From an uncultured Chthonomonas sp. (GTDB lineage: Bacteria > Armatimonadota > Chthonomonadetes > Chthonomonadales > Chthonomonadaceae): 64,000 nucleotides of DNA. Position numbers and translations under genes: made by a program. Numbering within the stretch: the stretch's first letter is position 1; every line of letters begins with the position of its first letter. A model generated the notes under the pieces. The model ran no database searches. It had not been told where the DNA came from and worked only from the letters and a program-made list of their open reading frames with translations. The DNA lies in NCBI GenBank assembly GCA_903859705.1, contig CAIONQ010000050.1:1-64000 (forward strand), given 5' to 3'. Of the stretch, positions 44,741 through 61,303 are shown in pieces.

Positions 44741-45430
44741 ATGCAACCGGAACCCAACCAACCGCTTCAAGAACTGCACAATCCTGAGCCAGCCCACTAT
44801 GATGTGAACTGGATCTGGGGTCTATTTTGCGAGTATGCAGAACAGGATTTTCCAGAATCACTGATGCTGGCGCCGCTACTGTTTGCCATTGATGATGAAG
44901 GCAATAAACTTGGCCGCTATCTCGAGAACGAAGAGATCTGCGCCCTCATTGAAGGGGAAGTGGAAGTAATTGTCGATGAAGAAGACGAAGAAACCGAAGG
45001 TCCAGACCATCAATATCCTTGCCACATACTGGCAATGGCAGACACAAAAATCGATGAACTCCCATCGCACATTGCCAACCTGTTCAAACCAAAGATAAAT
45101 CGCCATCCGTGGCAGGGCAAACTGTTTGCTAAGGATCTGGGCTACACCGTAGAACCCAACACCCGCGAGCAGATATCAGAAATTTACGACACCCTTGCAG
45201 GTTCGGGGCTGATCATCCATTCGGAAAAAGACTACATTCTTGATGCCCTTGTGGAAACTGTAGAGATCGAAGGCAACTACATCGGCCGCCCGCTTACAGA
45301 AAAAGAGATCCGGTACACGGTTCTTGATGATGATGATGGAAATTCAGACTGGCCCTGCGACACCCCCTGGTGGTGGAGCCAACAAATCGAAAGGAAACTG
45401 GAGTTAGCTCAACAGGCACCAACCACCTAA
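44741..45430 (+). CDS. Acidic hypothetical protein
   Basis: GGAGG eleven bases upstream supports the ATG at 44741 over one at 44681. The 229-residue soluble protein is very acidic, with IEGEVEVIVDEEDEETEG near residue 70 and VLDDDDGNSD near the end. Residues about 15-45 (VNWIWGLFCEYAEQDFPESLMLAPLLF) and 180-200 look like globular structure. No family recognised. It stands alone between non-coding regions just upstream of the defence island; no link to it can be shown. Confidence 0.55.
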   Translation: MQPEPNQPLQELHNPEPAHYDVNWIWGLFCEYAEQDFPESLMLAPLLFAIDDEGNKLGRYLENEEICALIEGEVEVIVDEEDEETEGPDHQYPCHILAMADTKIDELPSHIANLFKPKINRHPWQGKLFAKDLGYTVEPNTREQISEIYDTLAGSGLIIHSEKDYILDALVETVEIEGNYIGRPLTEKEIRYTVLDDDDGNSDWPCDTPWWWSQQIERKLELAQQAPTT

Positions 45431-46069
45431 CCAGCAAACGCTATTTGCACAAAGGGTAGCAACACACTTCCTCCGGAAGCTCACTTAAGCTTCGGATACC
45501 TTGCTGTGCTGATCTCATCATAAACCGAACGGAAGGTAACCACAATACTCAGGCGTTTAAGCACGGTGCCATTCGCTGCGGAGTTGTGGCGAGTGCATAT
45601 CGTAGTCGGTGTTATCCTTTAATGCCGATGATCCTTAGATGTTCATCTACATCATCCAAATCACTCCAACTACCCGCACCTATACGCGATGTAATACTAT
45701 AGAGTTCGGGGTTGGCCAGCTCCCGTGTTTCCGCGCAACCTTAGGCACCATTCGCAGGGTAACACGGGATCAACGGAGCGCTGTAAGGCAACTGGCAGGG
45801 TGTGATTGAGGGGTGGTGCTTATTCAGCCAGCGGGGCTGCAAACACAAAGCGCACCCCTAGAGTCCAGTGCAGGAAATAGCACCCATGCAACGAATATTG
45901 CGGTATAAGTTTCTTTTGATCAGTCGGCGGATTGCGCATTGCGTCCTGCCGTGTGACAATTACTGTACCTGGCGCTGTTTGTCTGCTTAATAGATTAATC
46001 CGGGCGGTGTTCTTTCAGGCACCGATAAACGGCACCAACCCCTTACGCTCAGGTTTAGAAAGCCAATTC
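45431..46069. other. Non-coding region before the restriction-modification island
   Basis: About 640 bases contain no gene I can support. On the minus strand short open stretches near 45480-45745 read like coding sequence (ANPELYSITSRIG and FRSVYDEISTARY) in different frames without starts, possibly a decayed gene. The hsdM promoter was not identified; a frame upstream of hsdM (from 45932) is in phase but lacks family similarity. Confidence 0.35.
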
Positions 46070-48223
46070 ATGGAACAGCAACAGCTCGGCTGGATCACCA
46101 ACTTCATCTGGGGCATCGCAGACGACGTCCTTAGAGATGTATATGTGCGTGGTAAATACCGGGACGTAATTTTGCCAATGGTAGTTATCAGGCGCCTGGA
46201 TGCCGTTCTGGAGCCCAGCAAGCAGGCGGTGCTCAGCATGAAAGCACAGCTAAACAAGGCAAATATTGCTAACCAGGATGCGGCCCTGCGCCACGCCTCC
46301 GGCCAGGCGTTTTACAACAGCTCTCAGTTCACCCTGAGGGATTTGAAAGCCCGTACACGCATTCAGCAGCTTAAAGCAGATTTTGAGGATTACCTGGATG
46401 GCTTCTCACCCAACGTTCAGGAGATCCTTGAGAAGTTCAAATTCAGAAACCAGATAGCCACGCTGGTAGATGCAGAAATTCTGGGTGGCATGCTGGATAA
46501 GTTTCTGGATCATAGCATCAACCTTGCACCGCAGCCAGTTTATGATTCCGCAGGCAACGTTCGCCTGCCCGCCCTGGATAACCACGCCATGGGCACCATG
46601 TTTGAAGAGCTCATCCGCAGGTTTAACGAAGAAAACAACGAGGAAGCCGGAGAGCACTTCACCCCGCGTGATGTGGTGAAGCTCATGGCAGATCTCATCT
46701 TCCGCCCTATTGCCTCCGAAATTACGGATGGAACCTACACAGTTTACGATGCCGCTTGCGGTACCGGCGGCATGCTAACCGTTGCAGAAGAACGGCTAAA
46801 GCAGCTGGCAGAAGAACAGGGCAAACAGGTTTCCGTACACCTGTTCGGGCAAGAGGTACAGCCAGAAACATACGCCATCACACGTGCAGACCTGCTGTTG
46901 AAAGGCGAGGGTGCCGAAGCAGATAACTTTGTGTATGGCTCTACACTTTCTGCCGATGGTTTTGCACGCAACGAATTCGATTTCATGCTCTCCAATCCAC
47001 CGTACGGCAAAAGCTGGAAAAACGACATGGAGAAAATGGGCGGCAAAGGAGACATGCGCGATCCTCGCTTTCACGTTATGCATCACGGCGAGCAGCTATC
47101 ACTTATAACCCGCAGCAGTGATGGCCAGCTGATGTTTCTGGTAAACAAGCTTACCAAAATGAAGCAGAGCGGCCGCCACGGCAGCCGTATTGCAGAGGTT
47201 CATAACGGTAGCTCACTGTTCACAGGGGATGCTGGCCAGGGCGAGAGCAATATTCGGCGCTGGATATTGGAAAACGACTGGCTGGAGGCCATTATCGCCC
47301 TGCCGCTCAACATGTTTTACAACACCGGCATCGCCACCTACATCTGGGTGCTCACCAATAAAAAGCCAGAGCATCGGAAAGGCAAAGTGCAGTTAATCGA
47401 TGCCTCAGGCTGGTTTAAGCCGCTTCGCAAAAACCTTGGCAGCAAAAACTGTGAGCTTGCGGATGAGCACATCCAGCAAATTGTAGATACCTTCCTCGCA
47501 TTTGAAGACAGCACGCAGTCTAAGATCTTTCCGAATGCCGCTTTCGGATATTGGAAAGTAACAGTAGAGCGCCCACTGCGCCTCCGCATAGACCTGTCAC
47601 CCGCAAAACGCGCCGCGTTTCGCAACGCGTGTGCTGGTGCAGCAGACCTGCCGCTGGCAACCCTGGCCGTGCACCTCGCTGAAAAGCTGGGTGCTGGCCC
47701 CCATTACGATTGGAACAGTTTTCTTGCTGCCGCAGAAAAGGCCGGCGAAGAGTGCAAGTGCAAGCTGAACGCAAAACGTATAAAGATGCTTCAAACCGAA
47801 CTTGCCGTAAGGGACGAATCCGCGCAGCCCGTTATACGCAAGGTTCACAGAGCCACGGTTACGCCAGACCCGTTCCATGGCACCTACGAAGTGCAGCTCA
47901 ACGGCAAGCCAGGCGTGGTGGAATATGAGCCAGATTCAGAACTTCGAGATTCCGAGAGTGTGCCGCTGCTGGAACCGGGGGGGATAGAAGCGTTCATCCG
48001 CAGAGAAGTGCTGCCGCATGTTCCCGATGCCTGGGTTGTGGCCGATAAAACACAGATAGGCTACGAAATCAGCTTTACCCGCTACTTCTACAAACCAAAG
48101 CCAATGCGCACGCTCGCCGAAATCCGTGCAGACATAGAAGCACTGGAGAGAGAAACCGAGGGCCTGCTGCAAGAAGTTCTGGTGGAGGTGGAAGGCACAG
48201 GGATGATTGGCAATGCCGATTGA
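46070..48223 (+). CDS. hsdM: Type I restriction-modification DNA methyltransferase subunit
   Basis: The ATG at 46070 gives the family N-terminus (LGWITNFIWGIADDVLRDVYVRGKYRDVILPM); the longer frame adds 46 unrelated residues. The 717-residue product is an N6-adenine methyltransferase: DAACGTGGML (AdoMet binding, motif I) at about residue 232 and SNPPYGKSW (catalytic motif IV) at about 307; the HFTPRDVVKLMADL segment is typical of HsdM. The C-terminal region includes a variable domain and a helical end (AEIRADIEALERETEGLL) that contacts HsdS. It overlaps the next ORF by 11 bases. First gene of the six-gene defence operon. Confidence 0.93.
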   Translation: MEQQQLGWITNFIWGIADDVLRDVYVRGKYRDVILPMVVIRRLDAVLEPSKQAVLSMKAQLNKANIANQDAALRHASGQAFYNSSQFTLRDLKARTRIQQLKADFEDYLDGFSPNVQEILEKFKFRNQIATLVDAEILGGMLDKFLDHSINLAPQPVYDSAGNVRLPALDNHAMGTMFEELIRRFNEENNEEAGEHFTPRDVVKLMADLIFRPIASEITDGTYTVYDAACGTGGMLTVAEERLKQLAEEQGKQVSVHLFGQEVQPETYAITRADLLLKGEGAEADNFVYGSTLSADGFARNEFDFMLSNPPYGKSWKNDMEKMGGKGDMRDPRFHVMHHGEQLSLITRSSDGQLMFLVNKLTKMKQSGRHGSRIAEVHNGSSLFTGDAGQGESNIRRWILENDWLEAIIALPLNMFYNTGIATYIWVLTNKKPEHRKGKVQLIDASGWFKPLRKNLGSKNCELADEHIQQIVDTFLAFEDSTQSKIFPNAAFGYWKVTVERPLRLRIDLSPAKRAAFRNACAGAADLPLATLAVHLAEKLGAGPHYDWNSFLAAAEKAGEECKCKLNAKRIKMLQTELAVRDESAQPVIRKVHRATVTPDPFHGTYEVQLNGKPGVVEYEPDSELRDSESVPLLEPGGIEAFIRREVLPHVPDAWVVADKTQIGYEISFTRYFYKPKPMRTLAEIRADIEALERETEGLLQEVLVEVEGTGMIGNAD

Positions 48224-51200
48224 CTTTAAGGCTCTGAGCGAAGAAAACCTTCGACGATATGGCACGGATGTTGGTTTGTGGGCACCAGGATTGCTCGCGA
48301 ATCTTTATCACGAACGAATTCACTTCGTTTTTGAGTTGCTGCAGAACGCAGAAGATGCCATTCGCAAACGTGTAGCAGACGGGCCGAACTCCGTTAGATT
48401 CCACTTGTCGCGCGCTGGTTTAACCGTTACACATTATGGCAAACCCTTTGACGAGTCAGACGTAAGAGGACTTTGCGGAATAAGTCAGAGTACCAAACGA
48501 GACGAACTAACGGCTATAGGTAGGTTCGGAATTGGATTTAAGTCTGTTTACGCAGTTACGAATGAGCCGCAGATAAGTTCTGGAGGACATCATTTTGCCG
48601 TCGAAAACTATGTTCATCCCGTAGAACTGCCGCCCACTACCCTGGAGTCTTCCTGCACCCGCTTCTGGCTGCCATTTAGAGATGGGGATGGTTCTATTTA
48701 TGACGAGATTGCAGAAGGCCTTCAGTCACTCGATTCGCGAACGTTGCTGTTCTTAAAATACATTGATGCTGTGAACTGGGAGATTGAGGACGGGGAAACG
48801 GGTAACTACGTCCGGCACGCCGAAGATATGCAGCCGGGGGTGAAGATAGTTACGCTGGCTTCTTCGGCAAGCATTGGCCGCGAGTCGGCGACTGAACGTT
48901 GGCTCGTTTTCGCCAACAAGGTTGAATTTGAAGGTAACGCTGTTGGATTTGTTGAGGTGGGGTATGCCCTCAATTCAGCGGGCGCAGAGCGTGATCTCTC
49001 AATAAAATATGCATCGAACTCACGGATCGTCGCTTCTTTCCCCACCGGTGTCTCTACCAACCTTGGCGTGCTGTTGCAGGGTCCGTACAGAACAACACCA
49101 GCTCGAGATAATGTGCCACCCAAAGATGATTGGAACCAGCATTTGGTCCATGAAACTGCGCGACTACTGGTAGCTTCACTGGGGATACTGCGGGATCTGA
49201 ATGCACTTTCTGTCGATGTACTTGGTTGCCTTCCAATCGACAAAAAGACCTTTGGTCCAGGGAGTATGTTTGAGCCCTTGTACTTACAAGTCGCTGATGC
49301 AATACGCTCACAGCAACTGCTTCCATCCTATAGATCTGGATGGGTGGCCAGTACGCAGGCTGCACTTGCTGGCACACGTGGAATCGCCGACCTCTTGGAT
49401 GCGAATCAGCTAATGACGGTGCTTGAATTGCCAAATTGCATCGAATGGCTTAATCCATCAATTACTGTTGATCGTTCCCCAAAGCTGCGCACGTATCTGA
49501 TTGAAGAACACGCCGTTCAAGAACTGCAGCCACAGTATTTACTAAGTAAATTCACGAAGGAATTTCTGGAAGCACAGACAGATGAGTGGATACAGCGTCT
49601 TTACGCGTTTTTGAATGGACATCCACAACTATTTAAACAAACAACTATTGCCAACAAGCCATGGGTGAGGTTGGAAGGTGGCACCCATGTAACTGCCTTC
49701 ATCGGAAGACAACCGAATGCCTTCTTGCCTACAGGCTCCCCATCTGGATTTCCAACCGTGCGGGCAGCACTTTGCACAAGTGAAACCGCACTCAATTTCC
49801 TGAAAGAGACTCTAAACCTAACAGTGCCAGATCCTGTAGATGATGTAATTGCGAATATACTTCCGTATTACAGCGCAAATGATAGCCAAGAACATGATCT
49901 GGCCATATTTGAGGAACACCTGAAGGCGATTGCGGTTGCCTACAAAACTGATTCGCGCACCCAACGCGAGCGATTAGTTGCAGCATTATCAGAAGCGAAT
50001 TGGGTACCAGCAGATTGTTACGATTCGGATCGACATTGGCTAAAACCAGCGGAATGTTATTGGCCAACCCAGAGACTAAAGGCACTCTTTGACGGTATTA
50101 CCGGTATTCCCTTTGTCGATCTGTCAATCACGGGTCTTAAAGACGACAGTGTTCGGACAATTATGGTTTCCAGCGGTGTTGCCAGTAGCTTACGGCTTGT
50201 GCAACACACGCCCAGGCTTTCGGATGAGTATAAACGAGAACTTAGAAAACAGACTGGCAACTCCGGGTTAACAGGCAACGAACAGGTGGATGATCGCACG
50301 CTCCTGGGATTGAACGCAATTCTTGCAGGAATAAACACAGATCCTCAAGACCTTGCCTGTGCACGCGGCCAGCTATTGTGGCAAGCCCTCGGCGATGTAA
50401 TTAGTGCAAGGGGCGAGAACATTCTTCAGGCAACGTACTCTTGGGCATTCTACTCGGGCAGACAGGTGAAGTTCCCGGCAAAATTTATACGTTTGCTCAA
50501 GGAAACCAAATGGATACCTTCATCCAGCGGCAGCCTTGTTAAGCCTAAAGACACAGAGTTTGAGGAAATCGAGCCTAACTGGTCTCCAAATGCGGCGCTG
50601 CAATCTGCCCTAAAGTTTCTTCCGGCGGCGGCGAACCTGCTTGCAAAAGAATTTGGTTTGGACTCGGACCTGCTACGCATGTTAAAAACAAACGGTATTA
50701 CAAGTATCGTAGAACTAAAGCAACGCACAGGCTTGAGTCTGGCTGCATCACCTGCTGTGGCAACAATCGCACCTGGGACCGTTGCTGGTGGACACAAGCC
50801 GGCCGAGCCAGGAGTTAGCCATTTAACCAATAATGTACCTGCAACCAGCCTTGCCGCAAACACCATTGAAAACAAGCTTGCCACAGCGCAAGGATCAGAG
50901 GTCCAGGGCTCGCCGTATACTGCAGGTAAAGTTGTCTCCAATTACAGCGGAGTTACTAACAACCCCAGGCACACAGGTAGTGGGGCACGCGAATTTGTAT
51001 CCTATATCGCAGTGCATCCTGTTGCCGATGATGAACATACCCAGGGTGACGCTGATGTCCAGGCTGCAAGAATGGAAATTGAGGAACATGCCATAACGCA
51101 TATATTGAACCTTGAGCCAACCCTCAAACGAACAGCCGCCGGAAACCCTGGTTTCGATCTTTTTGGAGTTGACGAGGCAGGCAATTACAATCGATGGATT

Positions 51201-51452
51201 GAGGTAAAGGCGATGACCGGCAGCTTGGACGACCATCCGGTTGCCATATCGAGAAAACAGTTTGAAATGGCACAAGATAAGGGCACCTGCTTCTGGCTTT
51301 ACATTGTGGAAGCTGCAACCTCAACTTCACCGCGCATCGTCAAGATCCAGAACCCTGCGGGCGTAGTTCGGTCATACACATTCGACCGTGGTTGGCGCGA
51401 ATATGCGATCACAAGTATTGTCGATACAAATACAGGTGAGGTCATCGTATGA
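48213..51452 (+). CDS. Sacsin-like GHKL ATPase fused to DUF3883 (putative defence protein)
   Basis: The ATG at 48213 is inside the hsdM end with GGGATGA upstream. The 1079-residue product begins with a GHKL/Bergerat ATPase: HFVFELLQNAEDA (N-box) at about 40-52, RGLCGISQSTKR and GRFGIGFKSVYAVT (G2) at about 109-122, as in sacsin-type proteins. A long middle region of about 700 residues has no recognised motif. The C-terminal 160 residues match DUF3883, a nuclease-like fold, with GFDLFGVDE and IEVKAMTG forming a D...ExK pattern. Placement between hsdM and hsdS strongly suggests a role in phage or plasmid defence. Not a known subunit of type I enzymes. Biochemical activity is unproven. Confidence 0.8.
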   Translation: MPIDFKALSEENLRRYGTDVGLWAPGLLANLYHERIHFVFELLQNAEDAIRKRVADGPNSVRFHLSRAGLTVTHYGKPFDESDVRGLCGISQSTKRDELTAIGRFGIGFKSVYAVTNEPQISSGGHHFAVENYVHPVELPPTTLESSCTRFWLPFRDGDGSIYDEIAEGLQSLDSRTLLFLKYIDAVNWEIEDGETGNYVRHAEDMQPGVKIVTLASSASIGRESATERWLVFANKVEFEGNAVGFVEVGYALNSAGAERDLSIKYASNSRIVASFPTGVSTNLGVLLQGPYRTTPARDNVPPKDDWNQHLVHETARLLVASLGILRDLNALSVDVLGCLPIDKKTFGPGSMFEPLYLQVADAIRSQQLLPSYRSGWVASTQAALAGTRGIADLLDANQLMTVLELPNCIEWLNPSITVDRSPKLRTYLIEEHAVQELQPQYLLSKFTKEFLEAQTDEWIQRLYAFLNGHPQLFKQTTIANKPWVRLEGGTHVTAFIGRQPNAFLPTGSPSGFPTVRAALCTSETALNFLKETLNLTVPDPVDDVIANILPYYSANDSQEHDLAIFEEHLKAIAVAYKTDSRTQRERLVAALSEANWVPADCYDSDRHWLKPAECYWPTQRLKALFDGITGIPFVDLSITGLKDDSVRTIMVSSGVASSLRLVQHTPRLSDEYKRELRKQTGNSGLTGNEQVDDRTLLGLNAILAGINTDPQDLACARGQLLWQALGDVISARGENILQATYSWAFYSGRQVKFPAKFIRLLKETKWIPSSSGSLVKPKDTEFEEIEPNWSPNAALQSALKFLPAAANLLAKEFGLDSDLLRMLKTNGITSIVELKQRTGLSLAASPAVATIAPGTVAGGHKPAEPGVSHLTNNVPATSLAANTIENKLATAQGSEVQGSPYTAGKVVSNYSGVTNNPRHTGSGAREFVSYIAVHPVADDEHTQGDADVQAARMEIEEHAITHILNLEPTLKRTAAGNPGFDLFGVDEAGNYNRWIEVKAMTGSLDDHPVAISRKQFEMAQDKGTCFWLYIVEAATSTSPRIVKIQNPAGVVRSYTFDRGWREYAITSIVDTNTGEVIV

Positions 51453-52858
51453 ATACTACCTTGAGGCCGTACGAACATTATGTGGACATGGGCTTGCCCT
51501 TGGCGCAGCGGTACCCAGGGCATTGGGCGCTACAGAGAATCAAGTTTTTATTTAATGAGCGGTCTGAAAAGGGCTTTCCAGATGAGCCCCTGCTTGCATC
51601 TTCGCAAAGCCACGGAGTAATAGCAAAGTCAGATTATGCCACGCGCACGGTTGAAGCTCAGAAGGACCTCCACCTACTAAAGCTCGTTGAGATCGGCGAC
51701 TATGTCATCTCATTGAGATCATTTCAAGGGGGCATCGAGTACTCGCACGCAAGGGGCATTATCAGTCCGGCTTATACCGTGCTGGCCCCAGGACCAATGA
51801 GTCAGCGCGGTTATTTCGAGCACCTATTCAAATCTGCACCGTTTGTCGGGAGCATGTCATTATACGTTACAGGCATCCGTGAAGGTCAGAATATTGATTA
51901 CGTGCGGCTTAGCAGGGAATACATACCAGTTCCGCCTCCTGATGAACAAGAGTCAATTGGTCGTTTCATCCGCTACATTGACCTCCGTGTGAACCGGCTT
52001 ATCAAAGCAAAGAAGCGCCTCATCGAGCTGCTGAACGAGCAGAAGCAGGCCATTATTCATCAGGCTGTTACACGGGGCCTCGACCCGGACGTGCCGATGA
52101 AACCAGGTGGCGAGGTATGGCCCGGTACCACGGTACCCAGGCACTGGCACCTGCATCGTCTGAAGGACATCTGTACTATTCAATCCGGTCTGACTCTCGG
52201 TAAGCAATATCTTGTTTCCGACGGTACCGAGTACCCATATTTGCGGGTCGCGAACGTGCAAGCTGAAAGATTGTCGCTAAAGGATGTCAAAACGTTACGT
52301 TTGCCGTCAACGGAAGCTGGCAGGCGTATGTTGCGATATGGAGATTTGCTGCTTACGGAAGGTGGTGATCCGGACAAGCTTGGTCGGGCGTGCATTTGGC
52401 GTGGGGAAATTCATAATTGCCTGCATCAAAACCATGTTTTCGCATTGCGTTGCTATCAGAACGCGATGCCAGAATATGTCCAGATGCTTCTCAATTCCAG
52501 CCACGGCCGTCTGTATTTTGAACGCACCGCAAAGCAAACGACAAATCTGGCAGCAACCAACAAGTCTATGGTTTACGCCTTCGCTGTCTATCTGCCCACT
52601 CCGCTGGAGCAGGCTGCAATCGTCGAATATGTATCGCAGGCAGTCGCTGGCATCGATCACGTACTCGGTACCGCAAGTTCAGAAATCAACCTACTCCGTG
52701 AATACCGCACTCGATTAGTGGCGGATGTGGTTACCGGGCAACTGGATGTGCGCCATCTGCAACTCGCCGACGTTCCAGAAGTTGAAGAAAGCTGTACTGA
52801 TGATGAAAGCGACGATAGTGAAGCAATAGGTGAGCAGGACAGCCTGGAACTGGAGTAA
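51449..52858 (+). CDS. hsdS: Type I restriction-modification specificity subunit
   Basis: ATGA overlap with the preceding gene. The 469-residue product has two target-recognition domains: each is followed by a conserved helical spacer (RVNRLIKAKKRLIELLNEQKQAIIHQAVTRGLDPD at about 172-205 and the C-terminal AEYVSQAVAGIDHVL...REYRTRLVADVVTGQLDVR). Both halves start with a WALQRIKFLF or WHLHRLKDIC type strand. These recognise the two halves of a bipartite DNA sequence; the sequence cannot be read from the protein. An acidic tail (ESCTDDESDDSEAIGEQD) is unusual. Confidence 0.92.
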   Translation: MNTTLRPYEHYVDMGLPLAQRYPGHWALQRIKFLFNERSEKGFPDEPLLASSQSHGVIAKSDYATRTVEAQKDLHLLKLVEIGDYVISLRSFQGGIEYSHARGIISPAYTVLAPGPMSQRGYFEHLFKSAPFVGSMSLYVTGIREGQNIDYVRLSREYIPVPPPDEQESIGRFIRYIDLRVNRLIKAKKRLIELLNEQKQAIIHQAVTRGLDPDVPMKPGGEVWPGTTVPRHWHLHRLKDICTIQSGLTLGKQYLVSDGTEYPYLRVANVQAERLSLKDVKTLRLPSTEAGRRMLRYGDLLLTEGGDPDKLGRACIWRGEIHNCLHQNHVFALRCYQNAMPEYVQMLLNSSHGRLYFERTAKQTTNLAATNKSMVYAFAVYLPTPLEQAAIVEYVSQAVAGIDHVLGTASSEINLLREYRTRLVADVVTGQLDVRHLQLADVPEVEESCTDDESDDSEAIGEQDSLELE

Positions 52859-52862
52859 CCCC

Positions 52863-53501
52863 GTGACGCAGGTACCCAATGATCCCAAAATCTACCATAT
52901 AGTACATGTCAATAATCTGCCATCGATTATCGCGGATGGGTATATCTGGAGCCATGCGAAGGCCATCACACAAGGCATTGCCTATACAGAAATAGGCATG
53001 TCACGGATAAAAAGCCGCCGCCTGTCGATGCCGGTTAGGTCTCACCCAGGACTGATGGTTGGCGCATGTGTGCCATTTTACTTTTGTGCCAGATCAGTCA
53101 TGTTGTACACACTTGCAGGCAACCATCCTGAGCTAGCCTACAAGGGTGGAGATGAGCCGATTGTTCATCTTGAGCTCAGCATGCGTAAAGTCATCGCATG
53201 GGCGGAACAAAGTAATCATAGGTGGGCATTCACTACATCTACGGCAGCGGCTTATCACTTTAACGATTATGTGAAAATTGAGGACCTCACAAAAATTGAC
53301 TGGACTGCAGTGAACGCCCGCTATTGGCCAGAATGCAGCGAGCAGAAGCAGGCGGAGTTCCTGCTGGAAGAAAAGTTGCCATGGGAGCTGGTGCAGACGA
53401 TTGGGGTAAAATCCAAGTGGGCACTGGCAAGGGTTGCGGATGTGCTGCCCGAAAACGCCAATCGACCGCATGTAAGTCTTAAGCCTGAGTGGTACTATTA
53501 G
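52863..53501 (+). CDS. darT: DarT-like DNA ADP-ribosyltransferase toxin (DUF4433)
   Basis: The GTG at 52863, with GGAG seven bases upstream and directly after the hsdS stop, gives the normal family start (PNDPKIYHIVHVNNLPSII); a GTG at 52830 would overlap hsdS. The 212-residue product has the NAD-binding YHIVHVNNL and ARSVMLYT segments and the catalytic Glu in EQKQAEFLLEEKLPW (about 160). DarT modifies thymidine in single-stranded DNA using NAD+, halting replication; in known systems it causes abortive infection by phages. Its antidote darG follows. Confidence 0.9.
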   Translation: MTQVPNDPKIYHIVHVNNLPSIIADGYIWSHAKAITQGIAYTEIGMSRIKSRRLSMPVRSHPGLMVGACVPFYFCARSVMLYTLAGNHPELAYKGGDEPIVHLELSMRKVIAWAEQSNHRWAFTTSTAAAYHFNDYVKIEDLTKIDWTAVNARYWPECSEQKQAEFLLEEKLPWELVQTIGVKSKWALARVADVLPENANRPHVSLKPEWYY

Positions 53502-53518
53502 AAGGGTTTGACGCACGC

Positions 53519-54568
53519 ATGATCGTATTCAAACAGGGCAACCTGCTTACCGAAGATGCCGAAGCCTTGGTAAACACCGTTAACTGCGTGGGCGTTATGG
53601 GCCGTGGAGTGGCGCTTCAGTTTAAGAACGTCTATCCTTCGAACTTCACCGCATATGAGCTTGCCTGCAAGCAAGGCGTGGTAAGACCTGGCAGAATGTT
53701 TGTTTATGAAACTGGCCAGCTGGTTAATCCGAAATTTATTGTCAATTTCCCAACAAAGCGCGACTGGCGCGGCAAGAGCCGCATGGAAGATATTGAAGCT
53801 GGGCTCGCAGCGCTGGTAACTGAAATAGAAGCCCGAGGTATTCGTTCCATCGCATTACCACCGCTCGGCAGCGGTCTCGGCGGTCTCGACTGGGCAACGG
53901 TTCGCCCTTTGATTGTAGGCACGCTGAGCAAGATAAATAACCTGAATGTCGTAATCTTCGAACCGGGCGATAACGCAGGCGACCTGCGCCCCAATATGTC
54001 GACACAGGCCCCAAAAATGACGGCTGGCCGTGCTCTTCTTGTAACCATGATAAATCGCTATTTAGCCGGGCTCCTGGATCCATTTGTAACGCTGCTGGAA
54101 GTTCACAAATTGATGTACTTTTTGCAGGTTGCTGGCCAGCCGCTCAAACTCAATTACGTTAAGCACAAGTACGGACCGTACGCAGAGAACCTGCGACACG
54201 TGCTGAAGAGCATTGAAGGCCACATGGTTACGGGGTATTCCGACGGCGGCGACTACCCTACCAAGCCGCTGCAGCTTGTGCCTGGCGCACTGGAGGATGC
54301 CACTGCATACCTGGATGGCAAAGAGGATCTGCAGAGGCTGGATCGGGTGTGCAAGCTCGTTGATGGTTTTGAAACGCCTACGGGACTGGAACTGCTCGCC
54401 ACCGTGCACTGGGTGGTGGCGGAGCAGGGGGCAAGCAACATTTCTGCCGTGGTTCATGCAGTACATGCCTGGAACACACGCAAAACGCAGTTTACGGAAT
54501 ATCAGATAGACCTGGCACTCCGAGTGCTTGCCCGGCACAACTTTGTGGATAAGCAAATCCTCGCATGA
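53519..54568 (+). CDS. darG: DarG-like macro-domain antitoxin
   Basis: The ATG at 53519 starts the macro domain correctly (MIVFKQGNLLTEDAEALVNTVN); a GTG at 53489 would overlap darT. The 349-residue product has the ADP-ribose binding macro domain with NTVNCVGVMGRG (about 20) and LPPLGSGLGGLDW (about 118), which removes ADP-ribose from DNA. The C-terminal 180 residues form a domain that in DarG binds and blocks DarT (LLEVHKLMYFLQVAGQPL). Its stop overlaps hsdR by four bases (ATGA), placing the pair inside the restriction operon. Confidence 0.9.
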   Translation: MIVFKQGNLLTEDAEALVNTVNCVGVMGRGVALQFKNVYPSNFTAYELACKQGVVRPGRMFVYETGQLVNPKFIVNFPTKRDWRGKSRMEDIEAGLAALVTEIEARGIRSIALPPLGSGLGGLDWATVRPLIVGTLSKINNLNVVIFEPGDNAGDLRPNMSTQAPKMTAGRALLVTMINRYLAGLLDPFVTLLEVHKLMYFLQVAGQPLKLNYVKHKYGPYAENLRHVLKSIEGHMVTGYSDGGDYPTKPLQLVPGALEDATAYLDGKEDLQRLDRVCKLVDGFETPTGLELLATVHWVVAEQGASNISAVVHAVHAWNTRKTQFTEYQIDLALRVLARHNFVDKQILA

Positions 54569-57500
54569 CTACAGACACCACTGAAAAAGGCCTTGAGCTA
54601 ACCATAATGCGTGCCCTTACGGGCCTCTCGGACGCGCAGATAGTTGGTGGCTCGAACACGGCTGTAGCACTGCGACGGGGCGGGTATGGCGGCGGCCTTT
54701 ATTACCCTGGCATAAGCGGTGATTACAACCGGGACCATGCTGTGGATACCGTGCAGCTGTTCACCTTTCTTGAAGAAACCCAGCCTGTAGAATTTGCACA
54801 ACTGGGGTTGGATACCGCTGGCACAAAACGTAATCAGTTCTTGAACCGACTGCAGGGCGAAGTTGCAAAACGTGGAATCCTATCCGTTTTACTTAAAGGC
54901 ATATCCCATGGGCCGGCAACTGTAAAGCTGTTTTATGGCACGCCCTCTGCAGGCAACCCTACAGCAAAACAACTGTGGGAGGGCAACCGCTTCAGTGTTA
55001 CGCGCCAGCTGCAATACAGCAACGATAACACACGGCGCGCGCTGGATATGGTTATCTTTATAAACGGCCTGCCGCTGGCAACGTTTGAGCTAAAAAATAG
55101 GCTCACCAACCAAAACGTTTTTGATGCTGTTCAGCAATATTGCCGGGATCGCGATCCCCGTGAGCTGCTGTTTCAGTTTCCACGCTGCCTGGTCCACTTT
55201 GCAGTGGATGATGACCAGGTGATGTTTTGCACCCGACTTTCTGGTAAAAGCTCCCGGTTTTTTCCGTTCAATATTGGCTGGAGAGGCGGAGCTGGCAACC
55301 CGCCGAACCCCGGAGGGCTAAAAACGGATTATCTGTGGAAAACCATCCTTACCCGGGAGGGCCTTACAGATATTCTGGAGAACTACGCCCAGTTTGTGGT
55401 TATACCGGCTGATAAGCAATCGCCCAGACGCGAGGAGCTAATTTTCCCCCGTTACCATCAGCTGGATGCCGTGCGTACCCTGCTGGCACACGCGCAAGAG
55501 CATGGCCCTGGCAAAAGGTACCTTGTACAACACTCGGCTGGCAGCGGCAAATCCAACACAATAGCATGGTTGGCCCGGCAGCTTGTTGGGCTGGAAAAAC
55601 AGGGTGCAAACGTATTCAATGCTGTGATTGTAGTTACCGACCGGGTGCTGCTGGATAAACAGATCCGGGATACGATAAGAGGGTTTACACAGCTTGCAAA
55701 CACTGTTGGCCATGCCGAACATTCTGGTAAGTTGAAGGAGTATTTGCAGGGTGGCAAACAGATTGTAATAACCACTGTGCAGAAGTTTCCGTTTATCCTG
55801 GATGATATTGGCAACCTGCATAGAGACCGCAGCTTCGCTATCATTATTGATGAGGCACACTCCAGCCAGGGCGGCAAAACCGCTGCAAAAATGAACCAGG
55901 CTCTTTCGGCAGATGGCAAATCCGAAGAAGATGAGGATACCGAAGACCAGATAAACCGCTTAATGGAAGCACGCAAAATGCTGCCCAATGCAAGCTACTT
56001 TGCTTTCACAGCTACCCCTAAGCCGAAAACACTGGAGGTGTTTGGTGTGCCAATGCCGGCCGGGGAGGCTGTAAAGTTTCGTGCCATTCATAACTACACC
56101 ATGAAGCAGGCCATTGAGGAGCAATTTATTCTGGATGTGCTGGCCAACTACACCTCTTACAAGAGCTACTATAGCCTGGTAAAAACGGTGGAAGAAGACC
56201 CGGAATTTGACGCAAATAAAGCCCACCGCAAACTAAAAAGCTACGTAGAGGGGCACGAATATGCCATCCGTCAAAAAGCCGAAATCATGGTGGATCATTT
56301 CCATGATCATGTGCTGAACAAGCAAAAAATTGGTGGCCAGGCACGTGCCATGGTGGTTACTGGCAGCATTCAGCGTGCCATTGAGTACTTTCAGGCATTC
56401 CAGCAGTACCTTACAGAACGCAAAAGCCCATACCAGGCAATAGTCGCATTCTCTGGCGAGCCAGAATTTAGAGGCAATAAAGTTACCGAAGCCACTTTAA
56501 ACGGTTTTCCCAGCGCCAAAATATCTGAAAAGATTAAACAGGAGCCCTACCGCTTCTTAATATGCGCCGATAAGTTCCAAACCGGTTACGATGAACCGCT
56601 GCTGCACACCATGTATGTAGACAAGGTTTTGACTGGTATTAAAGCAGTGCAAACCCTTTCTCGCCTGAACCGCTCATGGCAAAACAAGCACGATACGTTT
56701 GTGTTGGATTTTGTGAACGAGCCAGACACAATCCGTGAAGCATTCTCGCCTTTTTACAAAACCACCATCCTGAGCGGGGAAACCGATCCAAATAGACTGC
56801 ATGATCTGAAAGCAGATCTCGATGGGTATCTGGTTTACTCGCCCGCGGATATCGATACTCTGGTGGAACGGTACCTCGGTGGTGACGCGCGGAATAGGCT
56901 GGACCCAATACTGGACCAATGCGTTGCTAACTACATGGATGATCTTGATGAAGATCAGCAGGTGGATTTTAAAGGCAAGGCTAAGGGATTTTTGCGAACA
57001 TACGGATTCCTTTCTTCAGTCTTGCCGTACTCGCATGCTGCCTGGGAGAAGCTGAGCATATTCCTTAATTTTTTGGTACCCAAACTACCTGCCCCAAAAG
57101 AGACGGACCTCTCGAAAGGCGTGCTTGAGAGCATTGACATGGACAGCTACCGTGTTGAGGCACGGAGTGCCATGGCAATTGCCCTTGCAGATGAGGATGT
57201 AGAAATCGGACCACAGGCTGTTACAGCGGGCGGGAAATTGCCTGAGCCGGAATTAGACCGCCTTAGCAACATCCTGCGCTCTTTCAACGAGCTATTTGGC
57301 AATATAGAGTGGAAAGATGATGACAAAATACGGCGGGTAATAACCGAAGAGATACCGGCAAAAGTGGCCGCCGATAAGGCCTACCAGAACGCAATGAAAA
57401 ACTCTGACAAAGCGAACGCCAGGATTGAACACGACAGAGCCCTTGAGAATGTGCTTGTGACGCTGGTTGCCGATCATATGGAACTGTTCAAACAGTTCTC

Positions 57501-57579
57501 AGACAACCCATCGTTCAAGAAATGGCTTGCGGAAAGTAACTTTGCGACTACGTATGTAGAGCGTGAGGCAGGCGGGTAG
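54565..57579 (+). CDS. hsdR: Type I restriction enzyme, endonuclease and motor subunit
   Basis: The 1004-residue product starts at the ATGA overlap. An N-terminal PD-(D/E)XK nuclease is visible (ALDMVIFINGLP followed by FELKNRLTN at about 170-190). SF2 helicase motifs follow: Walker A SAGSGKSNT (about 325), IIIDEAHSSQGGKTA (motif II), and AFTATPKPKTLEVFG (motif III). The helicase C part includes CADKFQTGYDEP and QTLSRLNRSWQNKHDTFVLDF. It translocates DNA and cleaves at a distance when the recognition site is unmethylated, with HsdM and HsdS. Last gene of the six-gene operon. No frameshifts seen. Confidence 0.94.
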   Translation: MTTDTTEKGLELTIMRALTGLSDAQIVGGSNTAVALRRGGYGGGLYYPGISGDYNRDHAVDTVQLFTFLEETQPVEFAQLGLDTAGTKRNQFLNRLQGEVAKRGILSVLLKGISHGPATVKLFYGTPSAGNPTAKQLWEGNRFSVTRQLQYSNDNTRRALDMVIFINGLPLATFELKNRLTNQNVFDAVQQYCRDRDPRELLFQFPRCLVHFAVDDDQVMFCTRLSGKSSRFFPFNIGWRGGAGNPPNPGGLKTDYLWKTILTREGLTDILENYAQFVVIPADKQSPRREELIFPRYHQLDAVRTLLAHAQEHGPGKRYLVQHSAGSGKSNTIAWLARQLVGLEKQGANVFNAVIVVTDRVLLDKQIRDTIRGFTQLANTVGHAEHSGKLKEYLQGGKQIVITTVQKFPFILDDIGNLHRDRSFAIIIDEAHSSQGGKTAAKMNQALSADGKSEEDEDTEDQINRLMEARKMLPNASYFAFTATPKPKTLEVFGVPMPAGEAVKFRAIHNYTMKQAIEEQFILDVLANYTSYKSYYSLVKTVEEDPEFDANKAHRKLKSYVEGHEYAIRQKAEIMVDHFHDHVLNKQKIGGQARAMVVTGSIQRAIEYFQAFQQYLTERKSPYQAIVAFSGEPEFRGNKVTEATLNGFPSAKISEKIKQEPYRFLICADKFQTGYDEPLLHTMYVDKVLTGIKAVQTLSRLNRSWQNKHDTFVLDFVNEPDTIREAFSPFYKTTILSGETDPNRLHDLKADLDGYLVYSPADIDTLVERYLGGDARNRLDPILDQCVANYMDDLDEDQQVDFKGKAKGFLRTYGFLSSVLPYSHAAWEKLSIFLNFLVPKLPAPKETDLSKGVLESIDMDSYRVEARSAMAIALADEDVEIGPQAVTAGGKLPEPELDRLSNILRSFNELFGNIEWKDDDKIRRVITEEIPAKVAADKAYQNAMKNSDKANARIEHDRALENVLVTLVADHMELFKQFSDNPSFKKWLAESNFATTYVEREAGG

Positions 57580-57930
57580 CAGTGGAACGGCACAGTCTGC
57601 CTATCCACACCACAACAACTATACAGGCTATTACAGCTATACATGGATCTGTTTGCATACGCTCTGCTGGTAGGCATGTTGATAAAGTAATGTGCGACGT
57701 GATTTAAGGACATCGTTTTGTTCATCATGCAATTGGCCCGAATCAGGTCGATCGCTATTGCAAATCCCGCCAACATGAGGGTTGCACACCAGGACAGACT
57801 GGCGAATAACATCCCAGCTCGCAGAATAACGTTTGTCGCCGTACGAGAGCCGAACAATCTAACAACGTAAGTATAACTTTCCTTCGGCCAATGATCTGTT
57901 AATGGGTTCGTAAATAGTATATAAAATATC
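57580..57930. other. Non-coding region after hsdR
   Basis: About 350 bases with no supported gene. A minus-strand frame (57474-57857) overlaps hsdR and shows no family resemblance. No clear terminator hairpin for hsdR was found. The stretch ends at the strong promoter starting at 57931. Confidence 0.4.
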
Positions 57931-57960
57931 TTGACACTTTTTGTAATCCGCGCTTATAAT
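57931..57960 (+). promoter_or_regulatory. Near-perfect sigma-70 promoter of the paralogue cluster
   Basis: TTGACA at 57931-57936 and TATAAT at 57955-57960 are separated by 18 bases; both hexamers are exact consensus. Transcription would begin near 57967, about 90 bases before the 30-residue ORF at 58057 and about 200 bases before the first paralogue. Confidence 0.85.
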
Positions 57961-58056
57961 ATGCTTGCCAAATTGCAATCCTGCGCAGGCCACTTTGCGC
58001 GCAGTCCTTAAGTAATTCGATTGCAATGGCAATAAAAATCAATCAGGAGCACAACC

Positions 58057-58149
58057 ATGAAGTTCGTGCATGTTATCAGCAAATGGCTGATATTGGCTGT
58101 GGCAATCGTTGCGACTGTAGTTTTGTTACCTTTTTTGTCTTTTGCGTAG
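58057..58149 (+). CDS. 30-residue hydrophobic small ORF
   Basis: ATG 58057 is preceded by AGGAG seven bases upstream. The frame encodes 30 residues, starting MKFVHVISKWLILAVAIVAT and ending LLPFLSFA, then TAG. It is a lone signal-peptide-like or membrane segment. The stop codon is part of the AGGAG of the next gene (TAGGAG), so its translation probably delivers ribosomes to the paralogue start at 58164. It could be a functional small membrane protein or just a leader. Not seen before the other two copies. Confidence 0.5.
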   Translation: MKFVHVISKWLILAVAIVATVVLLPFLSFA

Positions 58150-58163
58150 GAGAAGCTTTCACT

Positions 58164-59114
58164 ATGCCAAGAGATAACACTCTCACCTCCACGGTGTGGA
58201 TTACCCTGATGGTCGCTATGGCCATGGTAGTGCTCCCCGGCTTTGCGTTTGCAGGTATCCGCCCGTTGGGCCCGAATCCGCCCATAAAGATCCACTCCTA
58301 CGGGTCCGTGCGCAAAGGTTACATCGATTCAGTGCCATTGTATTATCTTGTATCCGAACCCGCAAGAATGGCTGTGCTTAACCTTAGGCTGCATACCCTC
58401 AGCCCTGCTGAAGTTTCGGAACTTGTGCAATTGAGTAACAGCTATCCGGATGATCTCGCCCTCTGGGTAGCCGCTATTCAGGCAGATGATGCCTTGAGGA
58501 AACAGGAGACAGACCGACTGCTTCCCGCTGATGTGCACGGCATGCAGGAGCAGTTTAAACGCGCAACGTTGCAATGGTACGATTTTGAGCTGCATGAAAT
58601 GACAGACCTAAATTGGTACGTGAATAAGCTCAAGAGGGCAACTGATGCCACGGTGCCACCAACTACTACCCTGTATTCACTCTGGCTCAAAACCAGAAAC
58701 ATCACCATAGGACTCATGACACTGGACGCGAATTCAACGAACGGGGCGGCAAAGGGCTTTGAACCGGATGTTATCTTAAAAGGTGTAGCACCAAAGTCTG
58801 TTATATCCGAATATGAGGCCGCACGCCTCAAGGATTGGAACGGTGCTATCCCCTCCTGGCGTGATTGCTCAGACGACCGGATGCGGGCAGTTTACGCCGC
58901 CTTAATTACCATCGCAGATCACTCTCATTATTACTGGCAGAAGTGTGAGCTGGTGAATGGCAGATGGACGCCAACAGGCCCCCATCTGTTCAACAAGCAA
59001 ACGGTGAAGGAGGGCAAGTATATAGAGCGATGGATCGACAACATCGATTCCAGCAGGACCATCAAAATCGCGGACAACGACTTCCGTCACTATGGATTCA
59101 CCCATAAAAAATAA
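58164..59114 (+). CDS. Exported hypothetical protein, paralogue 1
   Basis: The ATG at 58164 follows AGGAG (longer frame from 58026 overlaps the small ORF and lacks a signal peptide). The 316-residue product has an N-terminal signal or anchor (WITLMVAMAMVVLPGFAFAG). The mature part repeats across the paralogues: SYGSVRKGYIDSVPLYYL, LNLRLHTLSPAEVSEL, DDLALWVAAIQADD, RATLQWYDFELHEMTDLNWYV, KLKRATDATVPPTT and WRDCSDDRMRAVYAAL, ending DSSRTIKIADNDFRHYGFTHKK. It is a small soluble domain with two Cys in the C-terminal half. No known family recognised. Confidence 0.7.
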   Translation: MPRDNTLTSTVWITLMVAMAMVVLPGFAFAGIRPLGPNPPIKIHSYGSVRKGYIDSVPLYYLVSEPARMAVLNLRLHTLSPAEVSELVQLSNSYPDDLALWVAAIQADDALRKQETDRLLPADVHGMQEQFKRATLQWYDFELHEMTDLNWYVNKLKRATDATVPPTTTLYSLWLKTRNITIGLMTLDANSTNGAAKGFEPDVILKGVAPKSVISEYEAARLKDWNGAIPSWRDCSDDRMRAVYAALITIADHSHYYWQKCELVNGRWTPTGPHLFNKQTVKEGKYIERWIDNIDSSRTIKIADNDFRHYGFTHKK

Positions 59115-59132
59115 CGGGTTTAACGCCATTGC

Positions 59133-59162
59133 AGCCTCTGCCGGAGATACCTGGCAGAGACT
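59133..59162 (+). terminator. Repeat hairpin after paralogue 1
   Basis: AGCCTCTGCC at 59133-59142 pairs with GGCAGAGACT at 59153-59162 (one C-A mismatch), followed by GTTTGTC. The same element, without the mismatch, follows paralogues 2 and 3. Confidence 0.6.
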
Positions 59163-59257
59163 GTTTGTCGTAGCTGGTTAATGCTCGACGTGGTTTACCA
59201 GCACTTTATATCCAGAAACGTGTGTTTGGTAATAATATGTAGAAAGGGGTAAACGAG

Positions 59258-60217
59258 TTGCAAACTGTAATTTCCCGAGCTGCAGCTAACAGCCGCGTGA
59301 TACAAACTCTGCTGCGTGTATTGTGGTTGTTCGTGGCCTCTGCCTATGGCTTTAGCGGAGCATGTGCGAACCCGCCAGTCAAACTGGAATCCTACGGTTT
59401 TGTGGCGCAAGGATACGTTGATGCTGTTCCGCTCTTGTATCTGGTACCTGAAGAGGCCCGGCTGCTTGTGTTACGGCTCAAGCTGCATACAATAAACAGC
59501 GCACAATTAGCTGAGCTGGTTACGTTAAGTGAGAAGAATTCGGATAATTTACCACTCTGGCTTGCGGCAGTGCAGGGGGATGACACGTTCAGAAATCACG
59601 AAACAGCAAGATTGCTTCCGTCGGTTGTGCATGGAGATACCGAGGAATTCAAACGTGCAACTTTGCAACTGTACGACTTCAAACTCCACAAAATGACAGA
59701 TCCGAAATGGTACGTGAATAAGCTGAAACGTGCTACTGATGCCACTATTCCGCCAACCCAGGTGTTCTACAAACTGTGGCGCAAAACGAAAGACATTACA
59801 ATCGGACTGATGCTGCTGGACGCTAATGATTTGAATGGCAGTGCAAAGGGCTTCGATCCTGATCAGTTGCTGCGTGGTGTTGCACCGCGGTCGGTCCTGA
59901 GCGTTTTTGAATCTGCCCGCGAAAATGGTTGGCAAGGAGATATCCCTTCATGGCGTGACTGCTCTGATGAGAGAATGAGAAGCCTGTATGCAGCTCTTGT
60001 CTCAATCTCAGAACGAAGCTTGACCTGCTGGCAGAAGTGTGAGCTTGTAAACGGCTCATGGACTCCTACTGGTCCGGAGATTTACAACCAGCAAAAGCTA
60101 AGGGAAAACAAGTATTTGAAGAGATGGTTTGATAGCATCGAAACAACCAGAACCATCAAAATTGCGGCAAACGACACACGGCGATATGGATTTACCCGAA
60201 AGAAGAATCACGGGTGA
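59258..60217 (+). CDS. Exported hypothetical protein, paralogue 2
   Basis: A TTG start with AAAGGGG eight bases upstream. The 319-residue product has an N-terminal hydrophobic segment (LLRVLWLFVASAYGFSGACA). Residues from about 45 align along their length with paralogue 1: ESYGFVAQGYVDAVPLLYL, LRLKLHTINSAQLAEL, NLPLWLAAVQGDD, RATLQLYDFKLHKMTDPKWYV, KLKRATDATIPPTQ, WRDCSDERMRSLYAAL, and a similar C-terminal DTRRYGFTRKK. It is clearly more divergent than copies 1 and 3 are from each other, and has a different signal peptide. Unknown function. Confidence 0.7.
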   Translation: MQTVISRAAANSRVIQTLLRVLWLFVASAYGFSGACANPPVKLESYGFVAQGYVDAVPLLYLVPEEARLLVLRLKLHTINSAQLAELVTLSEKNSDNLPLWLAAVQGDDTFRNHETARLLPSVVHGDTEEFKRATLQLYDFKLHKMTDPKWYVNKLKRATDATIPPTQVFYKLWRKTKDITIGLMLLDANDLNGSAKGFDPDQLLRGVAPRSVLSVFESARENGWQGDIPSWRDCSDERMRSLYAALVSISERSLTCWQKCELVNGSWTPTGPEIYNQQKLRENKYLKRWFDSIETTRTIKIAANDTRRYGFTRKKNHG

Positions 60218-60230
60218 GAGTGATCAATCA

Positions 60231-60267
60231 CAGCCTCTGCCGGGGATACCTGGCAGAGGCTGGATTT
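60231..60267 (+). terminator. Repeat hairpin after paralogue 2
   Basis: CAGCCTCTGCC at 60231-60241 pairs perfectly with GGCAGAGGCTG at 60252-60262 across a 10-base loop, followed by GATTTTG. Confidence 0.75.
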
Positions 60268-60352
60268 TGTCGCTGGCAAACGCGGCACCGGTGCTCCAGC
60301 GCTGTATCTCCAACACAACGTGACGGGCCCACGGTGAAAGGCACCTATAACT

Positions 60353-61303
60353 ATGCCAAGAGATAACACTCTCACCTCCACGGTGTGGATTACCCTGATG
60401 GTCGCTATGGCCATGGTAGCGCTCCCCGGCTTAGCGTTTGCAGGTATCCGCCCGTTAGGCCCGAATCCGCCAACTCCGATACGCTCCTACGGGTCCGTGC
60501 GCAAAGGTTACATCGATTCAGTGCCATTGTATTATCTTGTATCCGAACCCGCAAGAATGGCTGTGCTTAACCTTAGGCTACATACCCTCAGCCCTGCTGA
60601 AGTCTCGGAACTGATACAACTGAGTAACAGCTATCCGGATGATCTCGCCCTCTGGGTAGCCGCAATTCAGGCAGATGATGCCTTCAAGAAACTGGAGACA
60701 GACCGACTGCTTCCCTCTGAGGCGCACGGCATGTAGGAGCAGTTTAAACGCGCAACGTTGCAATGGTACGATTTTAAACTGCACGATTGGGACGATCCAA
60801 CATGGTATGTGAAAAAACTCAAGAGAGCAACTGATGCCACCGTGCCACCAACTACTACCCTGTATTCACTCTGGCTCAAAACCAGAAACATCACCATAGG
60901 GCTCATGGCATTGGCAGCGAATTCTATGAATGGGAGTGCAAAGGGTTTTGACGCGGAAGCTATCTTAAGAGGTGTTGCCCCAAAGTCTGTTATATCCGAA
61001 TATGAGGCCGCACGCCTCAAGGATTGGAACGGTGCTATCCCCTCCTGGCGTGATTGCTCAGACGACCGGATGCGGGCAGTTTACGCCGCCTTAATTACCA
61101 TCGCAGATCACGCTCAGACTTACTGGCAGAAGTGTGAAGTGGTGAATGGCAAATTGATAACAATTGGGACTCGTCTGTACAACAAGCAAAAGGTGAAGGA
61201 GGGAAAGTATATAGAGCGATGGATCGACAACATCGATTCCAGCAGGACCATCAAAATCGCGGATAACGACTTCCGTCACTATGGATTCACCCACAAAAAA
61301 TAA
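60353..61303 (+). pseudogene. Exported hypothetical protein, paralogue 3, interrupted by amber codon
   Basis: The frame from ATG 60353 is nearly identical to paralogue 1 (signal WITLMVAMAMVALPGLAFAG, same RKGYIDSVPLYYL and so on) but reads HGM-TAG-EQF at 60734-60736 where copy 1 has HGM-CAG-EQF. After this single CAG-to-TAG change the frame stays open and conserved to 61303 (317 codons in total), with the same C-terminal end. It is thus a recent nonsense mutation, suppressed readthrough, or a sequencing error. The 5' flank differs from copy 1 (no 30-residue ORF; AAAGG site). Confidence 0.8.

Follow-up and report, generated by a model that had tools for sequence, protein, structure and literature searches.

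A type I restriction-modification operon carrying DarTG and a TmtA-like GHKL ATPase in two gaps that hold exchangeable cargo

The DNA analysed here (the window) is a stretch of 64,000 nucleotides from an uncultured Chthonomonas sp. (contig CAIONQ010000050.1). At 46070-57579 it carries six intact open reading frames (ORFs) on the forward (+) strand in the order hsdM-tmtA-hsdS-darT-darG-hsdR, assigned from an ORF listing and Pfam, NCBIfam or PADLOC profiles. Three of these encode a type I restriction-modification (RM) system: hsdM (46070-48223) the 717-residue N6-adenine methyltransferase subunit (Pfam N6_Mtase and HsdM_N; PADLOC MTase_I, E 6e-254), hsdS (51449-52858) the 469-residue specificity subunit (Pfam Methylase_S; PADLOC Specificity_I), and hsdR (54565-57579) the 1004-residue restriction/translocation subunit (Pfam HSDR_N, SWI2_SNF2 and T1R_D3-like; PDB match to EcoR124 HsdR). 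They jointly carry the methylase, specificity and translocase/nuclease domains of a type I system, and the NPPY motif of HsdM (residue 309) and the GSGKS, DEAH and FELK motifs of HsdR are all intact. The gap between hsdM and hsdS (slot 1, 48224-51448) is filled by tmtA (48213-51452), and that between hsdS and hsdR (slot 2, 52859-54564) by darT (52863-53501) and darG (53519-54568). Junctions are -11 bases at hsdM/tmtA, -4 at tmtA/hsdS, +4 at hsdS/darT, +17 at darT/darG, and -4 at darG/hsdR, with the darT start taken as GTG 52863, 4 bases past the hsdS stop (searches used the open frame from GTG 52830), and that of darG as ATG 53519 (searches used the frame from 53516, one codon earlier). A previous sequence-only reading of the locus had described six genes on one strand with three overlaps of 4-11 bases and gaps of 4-17, and type I RM and DarTG as separate systems in one unit; the gene calls and junctions agree with it on both counts.

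The darT product is a predicted DNA ADP-ribosyltransferase toxin (Pfam DarT, E 4e-58; NCBIfam NF048013). Its catalytic Glu, in KQAEFL, is kept and aligns with an Ala in the crystallised DarT sequences (7omv, 7yk3), which we take to be deliberate inactivating mutations. The antitoxin DarG (Pfam Macro; NCBIfam NF048014, E 1e-133) matches macro domain structures 5m3i/5m31 over residues 2-153, and the DarT-binding chain 7yk3_B over residues 168-335. The pair thus resembles DarTG2, with a DarT-family toxin that retains its catalytic Glu, a two-domain DarG comprising macro and C-terminal DarT-binding domains, and intact motifs.

The 1079-residue tmtA product combines a sacsin-type GHKL/Hsp90 ATPase (Pfam SACS) with a C-terminal DUF3883 (Pfam NOV_C). 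The best PDB sequence match of the N-terminus is lizard sacsin (3e-13); Glu41, Asn45, Asp48 and FGIGFKS (105-111) are invariant in seven sequences, as are DUF3883 residues Asp982, Glu997-x-Lys999 and Gln1016. Tiamat (TmtA) is the best PADLOC family (E 3e-68), and nine TmtA profiles match. Tiamat is, we assume, defined as a stand-alone single-gene phage defence; the window protein differs in its RM-linked context and in matching only part of profiles that span 1063-1782 positions. The full-length model (mean pLDDT 57.7) was not used for fold searches, whereas the C-terminal part modelled alone (mean pLDDT 78.5) aligns with SPARDA, Hjc, DpnI, RecU and PvuII nucleases at VIA Z scores of 10.4 to 7.0, although best Z scores of 7-8 are common even where no clear match exists. 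The C-terminus is predicted to be a PD-(D/E)XK nuclease. NOV_C/DUF3883 is termed a novel restriction endonuclease domain in the available text of PMC3710099.

The RM backbone was compared with those of 291 genomes of the phylum and with plasmid records. At an HsdR limit of E<=1e-100, 17 of the 291 genomes matched; 12 were opened and five left (G265, G087, G145, G008, G041). Thirteen operons from the phylum and from plasmid relatives, including the window, have HsdR proteins at least 53% identical and possess each of the three hsd genes, whole or partial. L083, in which hsdM is interrupted by a Tn3 transposase gene, slot 1 holds a PDDEXK gene and slot 2 is empty, was set aside, as were L089, L090, L091 and L095, which meet contig ends. 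In 10 of the 13 operons both gaps hold added genes. Cargo was identified from a profile, the record annotation or likeness to a profiled copy, and unassigned ORFs occur too.

Slot 1 contains TmtA together with an IrrE-type peptidase and DUF4411 in G112 and G125, and with IrrE in G108. It contains a DUF262/GmrSD-type gene with KwaA and KwaB in G072 and, with the DUF262 gene in pieces, in G117; the nested Kiwa pair lies at L086 5117-6573 and L088 10214-11670. Other slot 1 contents are TIR, DUF262 and IrrE (G090), a Schlafen-like gene (G142), DUF262 (Meiothermus), and DUF433 with a PIN-like gene (Synechocystis); DUF4411 is presumably also PIN-like. In slot 2, DarTG is accompanied in Meiothermus by AAA and DUF4276 genes; elsewhere the slot holds Schlafen-like and helix-turn-helix (HTH) genes (G112 and G108), a second hsdS with an HTH gene and an unassigned 199-residue gene (G125), a second hsdS together with further genes, HTH among them (G072 and G117), DUF4062 with a Schlafen-like gene (G090), or IrrE with DUF4411 (G142). 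In Synechocystis sp. PCC 6803, plasmid pSYSG (L105) has NTP-transferase, zeta-like toxin and darTG genes between hsdS and hsdR. The cargo includes complete known systems (KwaA with KwaB, DarT with DarG) as well as defence-type genes that stand singly (TIR, GmrSD-type, Schlafen-like). In a more distant RM clade, three of four opened operons have cargo: Cyanobacterium HL-69 has stacks annotated as toxin-antitoxin (TA) in each of its slots, slot 2 of E. coli pLAO4 contains a pair of DUF262 genes, and that of Vibrio gigantis contains DUF4268; Acetobacter has none. The second hsdS-like genes of slot 2 (L018 5859-7274; L086 7936-9270; L088 6419-7743, as two ORFs) are 83-86% alike in nucleotide (nt) sequence. 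By eye, and with no profile run, an ArdC-like gene lies upstream of hsdM near operons L017, L018 and L019, and a serine-recombinase-like gene near L017 and L019.

Exchange of cargo on these HsdR backbones is seen directly. L018 (G125; IrrE, DUF4411, TmtA) and L086 (G072; DUF262, KwaA, KwaB) are 86.5% (hsdM) and 87.3% (hsdR) identical in nt sequence, yet have no match longer than 200 bases anywhere in slot 1; their first match breaks off at the stop codon of hsdM. In an HsdR tree built by a quick method from 21 rows, some of them partial, the TmtA carrier G125 falls with the Kiwa carriers G072 and G117 (support 100, starred) and apart from G112 and G108, which also carry TmtA. Cargo starts at -4 or -1 after hsdM in six of seven tabulated cargo operons (Synechocystis has a 50-base gap), and ends at -4 before hsdR in four of five (Synechocystis, +5); the corresponding spacings of the window are -11 and -4.

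Across the 291 phylum genomes and the plasmid records, the exact six-gene order, for which the sequence-only reading had proposed a synteny search, was found in the window only, yet each half recurs. The arrangement hsdM-..-tmtA-hsdS-..-hsdR is present in three further phylum genomes (G112, G125, G108), and hsdS-..-darT-darG-..-hsdR in the Meiothermus plasmid, in pSYSG, in one more phylum genome (G245) and, with a distant RM family, in E. coli. In G245 a DEAD-box helicase gene and DarTG separate hsdS from the start of an HsdR-like frame that is cut off by the end of the contig, and a GmrSD gene precedes hsdS. At the limits used, the window genome alone among the 291 has HsdR and DarG matches together, G245 having an HsdR fragment at a contig end; in G055 the TmtA and DarG matches sit on separate contigs. 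The same reading had treated occurrence of the order in one genome only, together with independent protection by each part, as the mark of a chance island, and this is half borne out: the exact order was found once, yet the six-gene unit is not a mere chance island, because each half recurs elsewhere.

DarG matches were found in 34 of the 291 phylum genomes, at 37 places, 31 of which were opened, the window included (left: G074, G047:C252, G166, G067:C154, G158, G055). Besides the window, DarG lies in a type I RM operon at one of 30 opened places (G245), and no RM neighbour was recognised at the other 29, although with several short contigs and few RM families as queries some may be missed. 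Random landing in a type I operon was put at ~0.12% per gene, from 75 HSDR_N matches in 121 genomes and an assumed 8 kb operon and 4.3 Mb genome. The single case in 30 compares with 0.03 expected (P ~0.03); with the window the count is two of 31 (P ~0.0006), the window having been picked for this feature. In the plasmid collection 13 of 72 records were opened, mostly top matches; type I RM is linked to DarG at four and none was recognised at nine. Meiothermus and pSYSG carry the RM family of the window, E. coli H240 has darTG in the same hsdS/hsdR slot of a distant family, and in Vibrio campbellii (L139) darT-darG stands directly behind the hsdR of another type I family with a 3-base gap. Among loci without type I RM, that of Xanthobacter has a DNA methyltransferase gene ~2.8 kb before darT, and that of Leptolyngbya a DUF1156 gene nearby.

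A DarG tree of 35 rows requires at least five changes to account for the six RM-linked DarGs, and starred branches force all five. Shuffled labels average 5.7 changes, so RM linkage shows no clustering, and gain and loss are indistinguishable. The DarG and HsdR trees disagree: the window DarG is sister to that of Meiothermus (86/86), whereas the window HsdR groups with G142 (84) and the Meiothermus HsdR with L091/L083 (99, starred), the two lying in different clades (each 99, starred). DarTG recurs in slot 2 without being its constant occupant. The sequence-only reading had proposed a layered unit in which DarTG fires when restriction is inhibited, with the ATPase as sensor or effector. The layering stands in the sense of stacked, co-translated defences. 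The locus counts, the tree and the unrelated cargo borne by the same RM backbone elsewhere lend no direct support to a specific coupling of DarTG to RM, or to the GHKL protein as its sensor or effector; such firing is possible.

TmtA relatives at ~36% identity or more lie within a type I or type III-like RM operon at 11 of 14 loci (window counted). Four are type I hsd operons (the window, G112, G125, G108) and seven are type III-like, with UvrD, Mod and Res genes (L020, L021+L022 of one genome, L029, L030, L141, L142, L143), tmtA being oriented away from these genes in L030, L141 and L142. The remaining three (L031, L144, L146) are short or cut contigs with no recognised RM gene. The queries used placed none of nine relatives at 25-34% identity inside an operon of either RM type, although L025 has an HsdM-like match at a distance of ~7 kb, and helicase, restriction and methyltransferase genes lie close by in L085. 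Plasmid searches with TmtA returned seven records, none covering more than 80% of the query, and one was opened; a scan of named genomes gave three loci, and one of viral contigs gave none with a single protein and six with an alignment as query. The type III-like loci share a recurring set of four genes, which encode a UvrD-PDDEXK helicase, TmtA, an N4/N6 methylase and a ResIII helicase; the set amounts to a type III-like RM with a predicted GHKL nuclease and is also found on viral-collection contigs.

Over 45300-58100 of the window, neither promoter-like patterns (9, against 12.3 in shuffled sequence) nor terminator-like patterns (14, against 14.1) exceed chance, and the gap at 45431-46069 has no complete ORF of at least 60 residues apart from an in-frame upstream extension of hsdM. 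G+C is ~0.48-0.54 across 44-62 kb, against ~0.55 earlier, and lies below most of the preceding 40 kb. Three genes flanking the operon were compared with Pfam and have no match. Downstream of hsdR, a perfect consensus sigma-70 pattern (TTGACA-18-TATAAT, 57931-57960, +) precedes three tandem gene copies at 58026-61303, spaced by ~1.09 kb and each encoding a protein of ~320-360 residues. The outer pair is 84-94% alike over the repeats found and the middle copy 72-77%; the first (58026-59114, the first large gene downstream of hsdR) has no Pfam match, and the third is split into two ORFs. The window genome (G000) has three more HSDR_N matches (C143, C102, C87), and the RM operon on C102 is compact except for one 209-residue ORF between hsdS and hsdR.

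The sequence-only reading knew of no characterised system with this arrangement. As far as the literature search shows, that holds for the exact six-gene order; DarTG within type I RM is already known from the RRDM island (RptR-type I RM system-DarTG2-M48) of enteropathogenic Escherichia coli (EPEC) E2348/69, which protects E. coli DH5alpha against phages (PMC12255303, 2025). As far as the accessible text of that paper goes, darTG2 occurs in 12 of 54 RptR-linked type I systems, another gene pair occupies the same gap in four genomes, and the hsdS/hsdR site is called a potential recombination hotspot. The window resembles the EPEC island in having darT-darG between hsdS and hsdR. It differs in its GHKL gene, none being reported for the island in that text, and in showing no counterpart of the upstream rptR (79 residues) or the downstream M48 peptidase gene: no complete 60-residue ORF lies between 45431 and hsdM and the gene at 58026-59114 has no Pfam match, no RptR profile search having been made. 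A toxic effector gene within a type I RM locus is also seen in PrrC of EcoprrI and in the Campylobacter rlo genes (PMC12707154, PMC2610378, as far as accessible). PrrC, however, is silenced by the RM enzyme itself and DarT by its own antitoxin, and the protein families are unrelated. Compared with DarTG2 elsewhere, the window copy is embedded in an RM operon, whereas most opened DarG places have no recognised RM neighbour. GHKL (MORC/paraMORC) ATPases and DUF3883-SNF2 helicase fusions are encoded in other RM operons (PMC2292703, PMC3710099, accessible text); in the window, by contrast, GHKL and DUF3883 are combined in one sacsin-type protein inside a type I hsd operon. A full-text literature search, with preprints and most subscription journals outside its coverage, found, among the titles and abstract openings listed, neither a GHKL/DUF3883 gene inside an hsd operon nor two exchangeable slots. 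As far as it shows, the GHKL/DUF3883 gene in the hsdM/hsdS gap and its combination with DarTG are new, and so are the swapping of cargo in two slots within a single RM family, the cases in Meiothermus and Synechocystis, and the association of this TmtA branch with RM.

The operon is probably a mobile type I RM whose two inter-gene gaps serve as landing places for self-sufficient defence or TA modules, co-expressed with the RM genes. Because these two gaps hold other modules in relatives, it would be less a single machine than a carrier for defences that can be exchanged. The analysis shows the genes present, their intact motifs and close junctions, the exchange of cargo, the recurring association with DarTG and a predicted nuclease fold; for the activities, triggers and additive logic of the operon we infer the following. 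HsdM2S would methylate host DNA, and HsdR2M2S would translocate and cut unmethylated phage DNA. DarT would be kept off by DarG until freed by the phage-dependent trigger of DarTG itself, whereupon it would ADP-ribosylate thymidines in single-stranded DNA and stop replication in phages that escape cutting; restriction and DarTG would form two successive barriers. The GHKL protein would close on ATP and license its predicted nuclease on foreign or damaged DNA, acting as an ATP-gated nuclease attached to DNA-modification systems. The layers would add through shared expression and shared transfer, with no obligatory switch between RM and toxin.

Several observations weigh against this carrier reading. 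Three of the 13 operons are compact and lack cargo (Niallia L084, Aeromonas L109, and L093 of G094), and the 13 are a non-random sample: many near-identical Enterobacterales plasmid copies (HsdR ~56%) were left unopened and, judged by hsdM and hsdR coordinates, appear compact. Slot 2 contains loose spots of 324, 176 and 214 bases in L017, L086 and L105, respectively, because of which cargo may also have its own promoters. Conversely, the tight junctions could reflect a functional complex. TmtA in slot 1 was found in a single phylum (four genomes), which makes a co-adapted partnership with this RM possible. For the C-terminal TmtA model, Foldseek gave no match at E<=0.001 (best Hjc, E 0.0026, TM ~0.5), and the nuclease-fold claim rests on VIA, with low TM-scores.

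Such a partnership is the tentative alternative for slot 1, and is compatible with the carrier reading for the DarTG half: TmtA would be a dedicated RM partner, an ATP-driven DNA clamp or loop plus a second nuclease acting on RM-marked targets. It draws on the RM linkage of 11 of the 14 closer loci, type I and type III-like, on the C-terminal PD-(D/E)XK model, and on the DNA looping proposed for MORC-type GHKL ATPases in RM operons (PMC2292703, accessible text). Nine of the 13 opened operons of the RM clade nevertheless lack TmtA, and the distant homologues are outside such operons by the queries used, with RM-type genes near two of them. A guard unit like PrrC, which is what the sequence-only reading amounts to and in which RM proteins silence DarT (with DarG) or TmtA until a phage anti-restriction protein disables HsdMSR and frees them for abortive infection, appears unlikely. 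PrrC itself lies within EcoprrI, with which it is physically associated, and is activated when T4 Stp neutralises EcoprrI (PMC12707154, PMC2610378, in the text available). In the window darG overlaps the hsdR start; two distant RM families have DarTG in the hsdS/hsdR gap (window, L080, L105 and L095; L111), and another has it directly behind hsdR (L139). DarT, however, has a private inhibitor in DarG, whose DarT-binding domain is present; RM-linked DarGs are scattered, clustering no more than shuffled labels; and no conserved RM-toxin interface is expected, because the same RM slots house unrelated modules. The accessible part of the RRDM paper describes joint repression by RptR and no RM-DarTG coupling (PMC12255303).

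We regard as improbable an addiction or mobility island in which DarTG and other TA-like cargo chiefly guard the RM operon and its element from being lost, with defence secondary. Much of the cargo is TA-like (IrrE/DUF4411, the NTP-transferase and zeta genes, the Cyanobacterium HL-69 stacks), several carriers are plasmids, and G+C is lower at the window operon; on the other side, Kiwa, GmrSD-type, TIR and TmtA cargo is of a defence type and not classic addiction, and the three flanking genes compared with Pfam, with no systematic search for mobility genes, have no match. That three unrelated defences came to be stacked in a single genome by chance is very improbable: it accords with the exact order being in no other genome or record searched, and is largely refuted by the recurrence of each half at the same place in other genomes and by DarTG lying in type I operons above the random-landing expectation.

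For the carrier reading, single reports (PrrC, the rlo genes, RRDM) become a testable pattern of one type I RM family with two defined module-exchanging gaps, in which exchanged modules mostly remain closely joined to the hsd genes. Both type I and type III-like RM are tied to a sacsin-type GHKL protein with a predicted PD-(D/E)XK nuclease, and pSYSG of Synechocystis PCC 6803 offers a model-organism test case, its darTG occupying the corresponding slot of the RM family found in the window. It is a long shot that this RM family is a general weapon mount, in which the HsdMS(R) complex or its inhibition would be a common sensor arming any effector in a slot (DarTG, Kiwa, TIR, TmtA, Schlafen-like); if so, unrelated effectors would be swapped while one trigger stays.

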